Assembly: GCA_024276995.1 (NCBI GenBank)
Contig: JAJRWB010000078.1
Coordinates: 1-64,000, forward strand
Source: Candidatus Eiseniibacteriota bacterium
GTDB taxonomy: Bacteria; Orphanbacterota; Orphanbacteria; Orphanbacterales; Orphanbacteraceae
Length of the DNA stretch: 64,000 nt
Direction: 5' to 3'
Below the pieces are notes generated by a model, which made no database searches, was not told the origin of the DNA, and saw only the letters and a list, made by a program, of their open reading frames with translations. Shown here in pieces: positions 17,174-40,564 of this stretch (the first letter of the stretch is position 1; every line of letters starts with the position of its first letter). A program made the translations under genes and the position numbers.

Positions 17174-18427
17174 GTGGACAGCGACATGGTATTGGGGATC
17201 AATTCACTCGGCCGGATCGGCAAGCTGACGCTCTGGCATCACGTGGGAAGGAAGTATTTCAGGGAGATCGTGGTCAACACGGGCCGCGAGGTGGGACGCG
17301 ACTTAAGCGCGCTGTGCGAGTCGATCGAGAAGGACAGCACGTACGGCAGGCTCCACCACTTCCTCCACGGGCGGAGCGCGGAGCGTTGCATCCGCATCGT
17401 CGACAACGAGAAGGGATTCCTCGAGATCGACGGCGTCCCCGTGCGCGTGCTGCGGAGCGATCGGAACCCGAAGGATATCCAATGGGCGGAGAATGACGTC
17501 CGGGTCGTGGTCGACTGCACGGGCAAGTTCAACGATCCGACGAGGCCGGTGAATCACCCGAACGGGTCGCTCAGGGGACACCTCGCCGCAGGGGCGCGGA
17601 AGGTGATGAACAGCGCCGATTTCAAGCCGAAGGAGAAAGGAACCACCATGCCGGACGATGCGGTGGTTCTCATCAGCGGCGTGAACCACGAGGCGTACGA
17701 CCCGGGAAGGCACCACCTCGTTTCGGCGGCGTCGTGCACGACCACCGCGCTCGCCCATATGATGAAAACGCTGATCGACGAATGCTCGGTGGAGTCGATC
17801 ATGACCGCGTCGATGTCGACGATCCATGCCACCACGAACACCCAGAGCGTGCTCGACAGCGTCCCGAAAACCGGGGCGAAGGATCTGCGAAAGAACAGGA
17901 GCATCCTGAACAACATCATTCTCACATCGACGAACGCGGCGGCGGCCCTCGAGAAGGTGATCCCTGCGATCGCCCAGATCGGGTTCATGGCGGATTCGGT
18001 CCGTGTGCCGGTCAACACCGGGTCGCTGATCATCCTGAACCTGACGTTTCGCACAATCATGGAGGAAGACGGCGAGCCCTCCATCAACCGCCGGAAGCTG
18101 ATCGATCTCTACGAAAAGGCGGCGGCGACCACGCAGAAGGGGCTTCTCGTCTGTTCGAACGAACAGAACGTCTCATCCGACATGATCGGCGAAGACGCGG
18201 CGGTCGTGATCGAGGAGACGGACACCCATACGCGGACCGGTTTCGTCACCCTCGACCTCTCGACGCTCCCTGGAATGAGCGACCAGGCGCTCGAACATAT
18301 GGACGAGAAGGTGGTCGGTATACCGGTGACGCACGCGAAGATTTTCGGTTGGTACGATAACGAGTACGGGAGCTACACGAACCGGCTCGCCGAGCTGACG
18401 TTGCACGTGGCGTCTCACATCGACTGA
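17174..18427 (+). CDS. gap: Glyceraldehyde-3-phosphate dehydrogenase, long form
   Basis: 417 residues, against about 335 for ordinary GAPDH. The NAD-binding start is INSLGRIGK, the catalytic Cys is in SAASCTTTAL (about residue 188 rather than ~150, because of extra N-terminal sequence), and the C-terminal signature is WYDNEYGSYTNRL. It starts at GTG 17174, five bases after GGAGGT. It oxidises glyceraldehyde-3-phosphate to 1,3-bisphosphoglycerate in glycolysis. It lies directly behind the dikinase-like gene and may be co-transcribed. It ends at a strong terminator. The insertions mark it as a divergent subfamily, but the catalytic core looks intact. Confidence 0.93.
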   Translation: MDSDMVLGINSLGRIGKLTLWHHVGRKYFREIVVNTGREVGRDLSALCESIEKDSTYGRLHHFLHGRSAERCIRIVDNEKGFLEIDGVPVRVLRSDRNPKDIQWAENDVRVVVDCTGKFNDPTRPVNHPNGSLRGHLAAGARKVMNSADFKPKEKGTTMPDDAVVLISGVNHEAYDPGRHHLVSAASCTTTALAHMMKTLIDECSVESIMTASMSTIHATTNTQSVLDSVPKTGAKDLRKNRSILNNIILTSTNAAAALEKVIPAIAQIGFMADSVRVPVNTGSLIILNLTFRTIMEEDGEPSINRRKLIDLYEKAAATTQKGLLVCSNEQNVSSDMIGEDAAVVIEETDTHTRTGFVTLDLSTLPGMSDQALEHMDEKVVGIPVTHAKIFGWYDNEYGSYTNRLAELTLHVASHID

Positions 18428-18440
18428 CCGGCGGATGGAC

Positions 18441-18477
18441 GGCGGGAGATCGGATCGATCTCCCGCCCTCTCTTTTT
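18441..18477 (+). terminator. Rho-independent terminator of the gap gene
   Basis: An 11-bp perfect stem (18441-18451 with 18457-18467), a 5-base loop and a CTCTCTTTTT tail. It also lies just beyond the stop of the convergent selenoprotein gene. Confidence 0.9.
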
Positions 18478-18704
18478 CATCCCTGCAGAGCCTTGATGTT
18501 TTCCACGACCTCCTCGTCGGCCGGGAATTCGCCCGTTTCCGATTTCAGGTAGACCGCCTTGCCGTCGGCATGGATGTCGAAGATCCCGCCGCTTCCCTCG
18601 ATCAGTTCCGGTTCGATGCCCGTTTCCTTCCTGATGAGTGCCGCCAGACCGGTGGCACGGGGAAGGTAGTTTCATACGCCGCAGTAGTGAATCGTCACTT
18701 TCAT
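18477..18704 (-). CDS. selW: Selenoprotein W-like (SelT/SelW/SelH family) with in-frame UGA = selenocysteine
   Basis: A 75-residue protein read through one TGA (18674-18672). It starts MKVTIHYCGV, then Sec11, then NYLPRATGLA, and continues through GSGGIFDIHADGK to VENIKALQG before a second TGA at 18479-18477. The redox motif is C-G-V-U, where relatives have YCxxC or YCxxU followed by YLPRA. ATG 18704 follows GGAGGT by eight bases, and TATACT lies further upstream. Immediately after the UGA lies a hairpin with a GGUCU apical loop (see next entry). Reading the TGA as a stop would leave a 10-residue peptide, while the frame after it encodes the rest of a family-like domain. The family is a small thioredoxin-fold (Rdx) redox protein; the partner is unknown. 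Decoding requires SelA/B/C/D elsewhere. Confidence 0.9.
18638..18658 (-). promoter_or_regulatory. Bacterial SECIS element of the selW-like gene
   Basis: On the minus strand the arms GTGCCACC and GGCGGCAC pair (one A-C mismatch) around the 5-base loop GGTCT. The loop starts 21 bases after the UGA codon. A GGUCU apical loop is the SelB-binding sequence of the E. coli fdhF SECIS, and bacterial SECIS loops sit roughly 16-37 bases after the UGA. The hairpin is inside the coding sequence, as is normal in bacteria. Confidence 0.85.
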
Positions 18705-18742
18705 CGTGTTCACCTCCGTTTCGGGTCCGTAAGCGGGAACAG

Positions 18743-37669: not shown

Positions 37670-38764
37670 ATGCGAGTCCTTTTCCTTTCCCACAATCGTT
37701 CCGATTCGAATGACGCGTACAACTATCGTCTTCGTACGCTCCGGCGCCTCCTGTCCGCGGACCCGGAGATCGATGCGCGGATCGCCTACCTCGGCGACGG
37801 ACGGCTCGGCGCTCCGACGCTCCTCCACCCGCTGAAAATCAGGTCGGTCGAGGGGATCGGCGAAGCGGACGTGATCCACGCGGGGAGCGCCGCGGTCGCT
37901 TTCAGTTGTTCTTTCCTCCCGCGCCGAACCTCGCGTCGGCTGATCTTCGACATGCACGGCGACACGGTGGCCGAACAAGATCTGGCGGCCGTCGGCGGGG
38001 GGCTCGCGGGGGGGATGCGCGTCCCGGTCGAGCGATGGAAGGAGAGGAGGGGACTCCGGTTCGCCGATCGGCTGATCGTCGTTTCCGCGCCGCTGAGGAA
38101 CCATGCCGTCGCTCTCGGCTATCCGCCCGAAAGGATCGAAATCGTTCGCAACGGTGTCGATCTCGATCTCTTTTCCCCCGGAAGGGAAGATCCCGTCGCC
38201 GGTCCGCCGCTCGTGGTGTACGCGGGCCGGTTCGACCGCTGGCAGGGCGTCGATCTGCTGATCGGTCTCGCGTCGCTGGCAGGGGAACGGTTTCACCTGC
38301 GGGTGATCGGCTTGACGACGGAGGACCGCGAAGTCCGAAGCCGGTTGAGTCCTTTCGAGAAGAGTGGGGTGGAACTGGTGGACCGGCTCCCTCAGGAGAG
38401 ACTTCTCCCTCTCCTGCGTGAGGCGGATGCCTTTCTCATACCGAGGGAGAGCCACGCCGCCACGGAGGTGGCGATGCCGACGAAGTTCGCCGAGTACCTC
38501 GCCTTGGGGAAACCGGTGATCATCACCCGCGTCGGGGAGCCGGCGTCGCTTGTGGAAAAGGAGCGGTGCGGCATCGTCACCGATGCGGACGCCGGCTCGG
38601 TGGCGGAGGGGATCGCCGCGCTCGGGCGGGCGTCTCCGGATGAGCGAAGAGCGATGGGTGAGCGGGCGAGGCGCCTCGCCGAGGAACAGTTCGACTGGGA
38701 GAAGATCGGCCAGAAGTACGCCCGGTTCCTGAAGGAGCCGTCAGGCGGGAGGAGCGAACCGTGA
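37670..38764 (+). CDS. GT4-family glycosyltransferase
   Basis: 364 residues, cytoplasmic. The N-terminal Rossmann half begins RVLFLSHNRSDSNDAYNYRLR. The C-terminal half carries the GT4 landmarks VYAGRFDRWQGVDLLI and, near the end, EVAMPTKFAEYLALGKPVI with the acidic residue region preceding it. It transfers a sugar from a nucleotide donor, probably to a glycan or glycolipid. The stop overlaps the start of a site-2 protease gene by four bases, so both are on one transcript. The acceptor is unknown. Confidence 0.87.
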   Translation: MRVLFLSHNRSDSNDAYNYRLRTLRRLLSADPEIDARIAYLGDGRLGAPTLLHPLKIRSVEGIGEADVIHAGSAAVAFSCSFLPRRTSRRLIFDMHGDTVAEQDLAAVGGGLAGGMRVPVERWKERRGLRFADRLIVVSAPLRNHAVALGYPPERIEIVRNGVDLDLFSPGREDPVAGPPLVVYAGRFDRWQGVDLLIGLASLAGERFHLRVIGLTTEDREVRSRLSPFEKSGVELVDRLPQERLLPLLREADAFLIPRESHAATEVAMPTKFAEYLALGKPVIITRVGEPASLVEKERCGIVTDADAGSVAEGIAALGRASPDERRAMGERARRLAEEQFDWEKIGQKYARFLKEPSGGRSEP

Positions 38765-39648
38765 GCGACTCGCCGTTCGAACGCCGGCAAGCGTCGGAGC
38801 CGGAAGTGATGGTCTACGACCCGCGCAGCGGCACGTACCGCGTGGCCCCCCGGCGGCGCGGCATCGGGCGGATCCACCTGATCCTCTTTCTTCTCACCAT
38901 CGGCTCGACCATGCTCGTCGGGGGCGTCGCCTACTCCCTGTCGATCGTCGCGATCCTCCTGACCCATGAAATGGGTCACTACCTGATGGCGCGGCGCTAC
39001 GGCATCCCGGCGACACTTCCCTACTTCATTCCTTTTCCCCTCAATTTCTTCGGAACCATGGGCGCCGTGATCCGAATGGACGGGCGGCGCGCCACGAGGA
39101 AACAGTTTTTCGATATCGGTGTGGCGGGACCGCTCGCGGGCGCGGCGGTGGCGATCCCCGTCGCTCTCGTGGGGATTCACATGTCCGACGTGGTCGCCGA
39201 GAGATTGGTGGAGCCGGGAGCGATCACCCTGGGTGATTCGATACTCTTCCGGTTTCTCACGTTTCTCGCCAAGGGAAGGCTTGCGCCGGAAACGACCGTG
39301 ATGCTCCACCCGGTGGGACTCGCCGGCTGGGTGGGACTCTTCGTGACGGCTCTCAACCTGCTCCCCGTCGGGCAACTCGACGGAGGCCATATTCTCTACG
39401 GACTCTTCGGAAAGGGGGCGGCGCGGATTTCGCTCTTCGTATTCGGCGGTTTCGCCCTCTTCGCCCTTCTCCAATCGCCCGTGTGGCTCCTTCTCGTTCT
39501 ACTCCTTCTCTATTTCGGATACCGGCACCCGCCGGCGCTCGAGGAGGACGTCGGTCTCGACCGCGTGAGAACATGGGTCGGAGCGCTGACGCTCCTCCTT
39601 TTCGTGCTCGCCTTCTCACCCGTCCCGATCAGCACGTCGATGCCGTGA
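38761..39648 (+). CDS. Site-2 protease family (M50) membrane metallopeptidase
   Basis: 295 residues, GTG start overlapping the previous stop. Helices begin at about residue 42. The zinc motif HEMGH (first His residue 69) lies in ILLTHEMGHYLMARRYG, and the second site is LPVGQLDGGH (Asp207). This is the minimal M50 core without PDZ domains, resembling plant EGY-type and bacterial membrane peptidases that cut within the bilayer. The N-terminal ~40 residues are soluble. The substrate is not evident; the co-transcribed GT4 gene gives no clue. Confidence 0.88.
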   Translation: MSDSPFERRQASEPEVMVYDPRSGTYRVAPRRRGIGRIHLILFLLTIGSTMLVGGVAYSLSIVAILLTHEMGHYLMARRYGIPATLPYFIPFPLNFFGTMGAVIRMDGRRATRKQFFDIGVAGPLAGAAVAIPVALVGIHMSDVVAERLVEPGAITLGDSILFRFLTFLAKGRLAPETTVMLHPVGLAGWVGLFVTALNLLPVGQLDGGHILYGLFGKGAARISLFVFGGFALFALLQSPVWLLLVLLLLYFGYRHPPALEEDVGLDRVRTWVGALTLLLFVLAFSPVPISTSMP

Positions 39649-39682
39649 CCGTCTCCACGCCGGGCGCTTCGGCACGCAGACA

Positions 39683-40564
39683 CTAAGGCGTCCAGCCGAT
39701 AAGGCCGCACCCTTCGGCATCCGCGCACGGAGATCCGGCGGCGAGACCGAATGTCTCCTTGTCGGCGAAGAGAGGATCGACGATTTTCATCGAACCGTCG
39801 TGCACCGGCTTCATGTTCTCTCCCACGCCATACGCGTCGCCCCCGTTGTTCCAGAAGACGTTGCAGCCGAACTCGGGCTCGCCCTTGGGTGTCTTCACGA
39901 GCACGGCGGACATCTCGGCATGGTCGGCGAAGATGTTCCCGGTCAATTTCGGAGATGAGGAGTGGAGGCCCACGGCGGCACCCCCGAGCTTCGCGCTATT
40001 ATTGATGAACGTGTTGTTCCGGATGATCGGCTCGCCCAGCTGGGAGTAGATCGCCCCCCCCCACGTATCGGTTCGGTTCCCGATAAAGAGATTGTTCTCT
40101 ACAAGCGAGTTGCATCTCGGCGGAAGATAGAGCGCGCCGCCCACGGCGGAGAAGTTGTTCCGGAAGATATTGTGTCTCAGCACGGGACTCGAGTCGTTGT
40201 CGAGCTTGATCGCCCCTCCGTAGAGCTTGTTCTTCCCGTTCTCCAACGTGAAGCCCTCCACCACCGATTCTCCCCCGAGGGAGGGGAAATAGAAGATGAA
40301 TGTCAGTCCGTCGCCGTCGAGGATCGTCTTTTCGGGACCTTCGGCGCTCAGGATAACGAGCTTCTTGGTGACCTTGATCCCGAGGTCTCGGTACGTACCG
40401 GGGTAGACGAGAATCGTATCGCCCGACTCCGCCTGCGAGACGGCCCAGCGGATCTTGTCCCCCTTGGTAACGCCGTTCTCCCCCACTTTCCATGGGGCGG
40501 CGGCGGCGTTCCCCGCGAACAGGACGGCAACGGCAATGGCCACGATGGCCTCAATTCGCTTCAT
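39683..40564 (-). CDS. Exported right-handed parallel beta-helix protein
   Basis: 293 residues. Signal peptide at residues 1-23 (MKRIEAIVAIAVAVLFAGNAAA). After a DUF1565-like start (GDTILVYPGTYRDLGIKVTKKLVILS) come repeated beta-helix coils such as GGAIKLDNDSSPVLRHNIFRNN, GGALYLPPRCNSLVENNLF and GGAIYSQLGEPIIRNNTF. No catalytic residues are recognised; polysaccharide binding or cleavage is possible for the fold. SD GAGGAG before ATG 40564. It is divergent from the broken peptidase gene; a TATAAT on the minus strand (40727-40722) may be its -10. It lacks a FlgD-like tail. Confidence 0.8.
   Translation of the reverse strand: MKRIEAIVAIAVAVLFAGNAAAAPWKVGENGVTKGDKIRWAVSQAESGDTILVYPGTYRDLGIKVTKKLVILSAEGPEKTILDGDGLTFIFYFPSLGGESVVEGFTLENGKNKLYGGAIKLDNDSSPVLRHNIFRNNFSAVGGALYLPPRCNSLVENNLFIGNRTDTWGGAIYSQLGEPIIRNNTFINNSAKLGGAAVGLHSSSPKLTGNIFADHAEMSAVLVKTPKGEPEFGCNVFWNNGGDAYGVGENMKPVHDGSMKIVDPLFADKETFGLAAGSPCADAEGCGLIGWTP

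Follow-up and report, generated by a model that had tools for sequence, protein, structure and literature searches.

The DNA stretch analysed here, a window of 64,000 nucleotides from a genome assembled as a draft in 81 contigs, almost certainly carries a functional UGA-decoded gene for a SelW-type selenoprotein, together with its selenocysteine insertion (SECIS) hairpin, at positions 18477-18704. The sequence-only reading had placed a 75-codon frame with a good Shine-Dalgarno sequence at these coordinates, and direct reading proved it correct; the strand, which it left unstated, is the minus strand. The frame runs from an ATG at 18704 to a stop at 18477, and the plus strand at 18477-18704 does not contain it. 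The features concerned are as follows.

17174-18427, plus strand: GAPDH-family gene, convergent neighbour of selW, which also adjoins selW in three relatives (ORF list, neighbour comparison)
18441-18467, no strand assigned: 12-bp inverted repeat between the convergent GAPDH and selW genes, terminator-like, with a plus-strand T-run (sequence)
18477-18704, minus strand: coding sequence of the SelW-type selenoprotein, 75 residues with selenocysteine (Sec) at 11, stop TGA at 18479-18477 (frame, Rdx and TIGR02174 matches, conserved TGA, dN/dS)
18638-18658, minus strand: SECIS hairpin GUGCC A CC (GGUCU) GG C GGCAC, beginning 13 nt past the UGA (folding, covariation, covariance model)
18646-18650, minus strand: apical loop GGUCU, 5 nt, located 21 nt past the UGA (folding, 40-gene comparison)
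18672-18674, minus strand: in-frame TGA at codon 11, which would encode the Sec of the CxxU motif (TGA conserved in 7/7 and 32/32 matches)
18711-18717, minus strand: Shine-Dalgarno sequence GGAGGTG ahead of the ATG (read directly)

Translation with TGA read as Sec gave the product MKVTIHYCGVUNYLPRATGLAALIRKETGIEPELIEGSGGIFDIHADGKAVYLKSETGEFPADEEVVENIKALQG, after which comes the TGA stop. It contains a single in-frame TGA, at codon 11, within C-G-V-U and followed by NYLPRA, exactly as had been described. The assignment to the SelW/Rdx family also held: the product matched Pfam Rdx (PF10262) with E = 2.4e-15 and 56.9 bits (cut-off 22.6), and NCBIfam TIGR02174 (CXXU_selWTH) with 48.3 bits (cut-off 34.2). 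The score against NF041051, the Campylobacter-type SelTWH family, was 75.1 bits, below the equivalog cut-off of 88. The AlphaFold2 model (pLDDT 96.5) showed a thioredoxin-like SelW fold, with the C8-G-V-U11 motif lying between strand 3-8 and helix 14-28; the family has its CxxU or CxxC between strand 1 and helix 1. The nearest structures were the SelW-related bacterial proteins 2fa8, 2ojl and 3dex (query-normalised TM-score 0.85-0.90), and mouse SelW (2npb) ranked lower at 0.69; all share the fold predicted for the product. Under genetic code table 11, the longest plain open reading frame across the gene lies in a different frame and starts elsewhere, and gene callers that use this table would be expected to lose the Sec form.

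We next compared the TGA with the corresponding position in relatives. Exactly one in-frame TGA was found in the selW gene of all seven genomes examined from the window's phylum, a sample that comprises five genera of one family. Similarly, in a second phylum, that of a MAG deposited as Candidatus Eisenbacteria, selW was present in 31 of 47 genomes, and each of the 32 matches contained one in-frame TGA. TGA-form selW genes were additionally found in MAGs filed as Myxococcota, Nitrospinota and Deltaproteobacteria. The codons after the UGA gave dN/dS values of 0.13-0.47 between genomes of the window's phylum, and this part of the frame is under purifying selection. These comparisons bear on the proposal that faulty sequencing or assembly turned a Cys codon (TGC/TGT) of an ordinary CxxC Rdx protein into TGA, which the sequence-only reading had named as one way in which it could be wrong. 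The genome is a draft with one frameshift in selA, and Kushneria homologues do have TGC or TGT at this position; however, the nearest homologues, in separate MAGs, have TGA, the Sec forms have in common a hairpin that covaries and whose loop G never changes, and the loop sequence is absent from the Cys forms that were examined, including those of Kushneria. The TGA in independent genomes refutes the error, which we consider to have a negligible chance of being correct.

The hairpin beginning 13 bases past the TGA, with its GGUCU loop, was reproduced by folding. Its stem comprises 7 bp with one 1x1 mismatch (A.C), and the minimum free energy is -10.5 kcal/mol. Published limits for bacterial SECIS elements are a stem of 4-16 bp, a distance of 16-37 nt from the UGA and a minimum free energy of at most -7.5 kcal/mol (PMC13188914), and the selW hairpin, with its GGUCU loop, 7 bp, 21 nt and -10.5 kcal/mol, falls within all of them (PMC13188914). 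The proposed folding check gave the expected structure; its energy was not significantly different from that of shuffled sequence (z = -0.89, with 40 of 200 shuffles equally good). Single-sequence folding was dropped as proof of a SECIS on this ground; since the hairpin could be a chance product when one sequence is considered, the case rests on comparison and covariation. A scan of the window with Rfam gave no match, as was expected because a family for such a hairpin need not exist.

For the comparison, 40 TGA-form selW genes were aligned and each base was read. They were gathered by a script that sought TGA, so the unbiased counts of TGA are the 7/7 and 32/32 given above. The second base of the loop was G in 40/40 genes, and UGG followed directly 3' of the loop in 40/40; the hexamers in the loop region were GUCUGG, GUUUGG and GGUUGG. 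Codon 19 alternates among Ser, Gly and Arg, yet its bases hardly change across the 40 genes, and its third base was T in 38 of them. The codons AGT and GGT are minor ones, accounting for 4% of Ser codons and 15% of Gly codons, respectively, in four genes of the window. A search of all possible base pairs inside the 54 bases after the UGA identified positions 14 and 32, which are the wobble positions (third bases) of codons 16 and 22, as the best covarying pair (GC, CG, AU and UA), at a level reached in none of 10,000 shuffles. The named structure of six pairs had 94.9% of its cells paired, compared with 88.1% in shuffles, which are uncorrected for relatedness, and 20-56% in versions with the partner slid, which keep relatedness. 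Its covariation score was 0.190 compared with 0.077, and 0/500 shuffles reached 0.190. The stem thus carries compensatory changes by both measures (0/500 for the structure; 0/10,000 for the best pair), and the pattern indicates that the hairpin is selected as RNA. A covariance model built from the alignment scored 60 bits at the selW site and at most 19 bits anywhere else in the genome; seven sites of the phylum helped to build the model, and only its margin over the second-best match is informative. No convincing second SECIS of the same type was found elsewhere in the genome, the strongest candidate reaching 19 bits (E = 0.08).

In Escherichia coli, the fdhF SECIS presents a GGUCU apical loop shortly after the UGA and has a bulged U in its 5' arm. 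The selW hairpin has the same loop soon after the UGA but differs in the stem, where a 1x1 site stands in place of the bulged U; across the SECIS set this site was A.C, U.C or paired. The hairpin therefore shows a resemblance to the fdhF element and not an identity with it. We tentatively suggest a broader reading, which we regard as doubtful: that no other selenoprotein is as constant in this lineage and in the Eisenbacteria-type phylum as SelW, which keeps the Sec form even where SelD has changed to Cys (G003), and that the SelW SECIS is a distinct subclass read by SelB through an RGUYU-type loop and UGG without the E. coli bulged U.

A selenocysteine pathway had been predicted for the lineage, with a search for selA, selB, selC and selD as the check and the absence of selB and selC as a refutation. 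All four genes were found. The genome contains selB (359 bits), tRNA-Sec (selC; 71 bits) and selD (380 bits), three genes of the Sec-decoding trait, and selD is itself interrupted by UGA (in-frame TGA in GUAAK). selA is also present, with its frame broken by one base (L001, G000:C12, about 38652-39739, minus strand); it is in one frame in four relatives and gave no match in two fragmented relatives. Among the relatives, selB was found in 6/6 and tRNA-Sec in 5/6, and the decoding genes as a set, selA and selD included, occur in most of them. In three of four more distant MAGs having TGA-form selW, no selB was found at E<=1e-60, perhaps due to genome incompleteness. Additionally, none of the formate dehydrogenase alpha-subunit matches in the genome (five larger and several smaller) showed an in-frame stop, and the commonest bacterial selenoprotein, formate dehydrogenase, does not appear to be in the Sec form here.

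The selA frameshift is most simply read as a draft error, with a real lesion as the alternative; if it is real, charging of tRNA-Sec may be lost in this strain. The gene might then be a recent pseudogene, with a former Sec codon and with translation now ending at codon 11. The one-base frameshift favours such decay, whereas selB, selC and selD are intact, as are the SECIS and the reading frame, one-base indels are frequent draft errors, and selA is in one frame in relatives; we consider a pseudogene very improbable, although a little less so than an erroneous TGA. The machinery also bears on the idea that a reassigned or suppressor tRNA inserts another amino acid, Cys or Trp, at UGA. The Sec position does align with Cys in homologues, for example in 2fa8, but other genes form long open frames when TGA is taken as a stop, as in table 11; the genome has tRNA-Sec and SelB; and simple suppression would leave a conserved hairpin close to the UGA without a function. 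Such a reassignment has almost no likelihood.

Sec decoding of selW would proceed as follows. A ribosome would arrive at the UGA of codon 11, and SelB would bind the hairpin just downstream within the coding sequence and bring Sec-tRNA-Sec and GTP. The UGA would then be read as selenocysteine. The product, 75 residues long with a thioredoxin fold and a CxxU redox motif, would probably act as a small selenol-thiol oxidoreductase.

In 2005, no selenoprotein family of the Sargasso Sea set was more abundant than the SelW-like proteins (PMC1088965), and several bacteria are listed with SelW-like selenoproteins (PMC1794560). In Campylobacter jejuni, full-length translation of SelW past the UGA was shown by Ribo-seq and proteomics (PMC11955535). 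Descriptions of bacterial SelW-like selenoproteins date from 2005 or earlier, and C. jejuni provides a demonstrated case of read-through; the gene is therefore of a known kind, and here a well-supported further example. It shares with the bacterial SelW-like proteins (SELENOW-like, PF10262; PMC1088965, PMC1794560, PMC13188914) the family, the CxxU motif, a SECIS within the coding sequence and a G in a small apical loop, and differs from them in its lineage and in the RGUYU-type loop followed by UGG that is common to the relatives found here. Like Campylobacter SelW, it is a small Rdx protein with Sec, and the epsilonproteobacterial selW genes were wholly missed by annotation (PMC4607533); because its NF041051 score is below the cut-off, it belongs to a separate subfamily. 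The SECIS of selW lies within the coding sequence, in contrast to eukaryotic SECIS elements, which sit in the 3'-UTR (PMC13188914). A search of the open-licence literature for selenoproteins in Eisenbacteria returned no paper, and we found no earlier report of Sec-form SelW in this little-described lineage. Sec-form SelW is carried by a little-described phylum and by most of the genomes examined of an Eisenbacteria-type phylum. Aligning the SECIS of 40 genes yields a clean covariance model, which could be used to find and annotate selW in environmental genomes, and with the selW SECIS one could test directly what loop bases are required by SelB when there is no bulged U.

The selD gene of the genome (L020, G000:C49:5158-6081, minus strand) has its TGA in the context AKAG-U-AAKHPR. 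The relative G003 has Cys at the SelD Sec position (L083), and the relative G002 has a second SelD with a different start and the sequence CAGCGSK (L089).

Upstream of selW, and on its strand, is a gene of the alpha-amylase family. The GAPDH-family gene stands beside selW in the relatives L024, L025 and L040, and the inverted repeat at 18441-18467 is possibly a shared terminator of the GAPDH and selW genes. The genomes of L024, L025 and L026, which belong to the window's small phylum, carry conflicting deposit names (Gemmatimonadetes bacterium and Candidatus Eisenbacteria bacterium).
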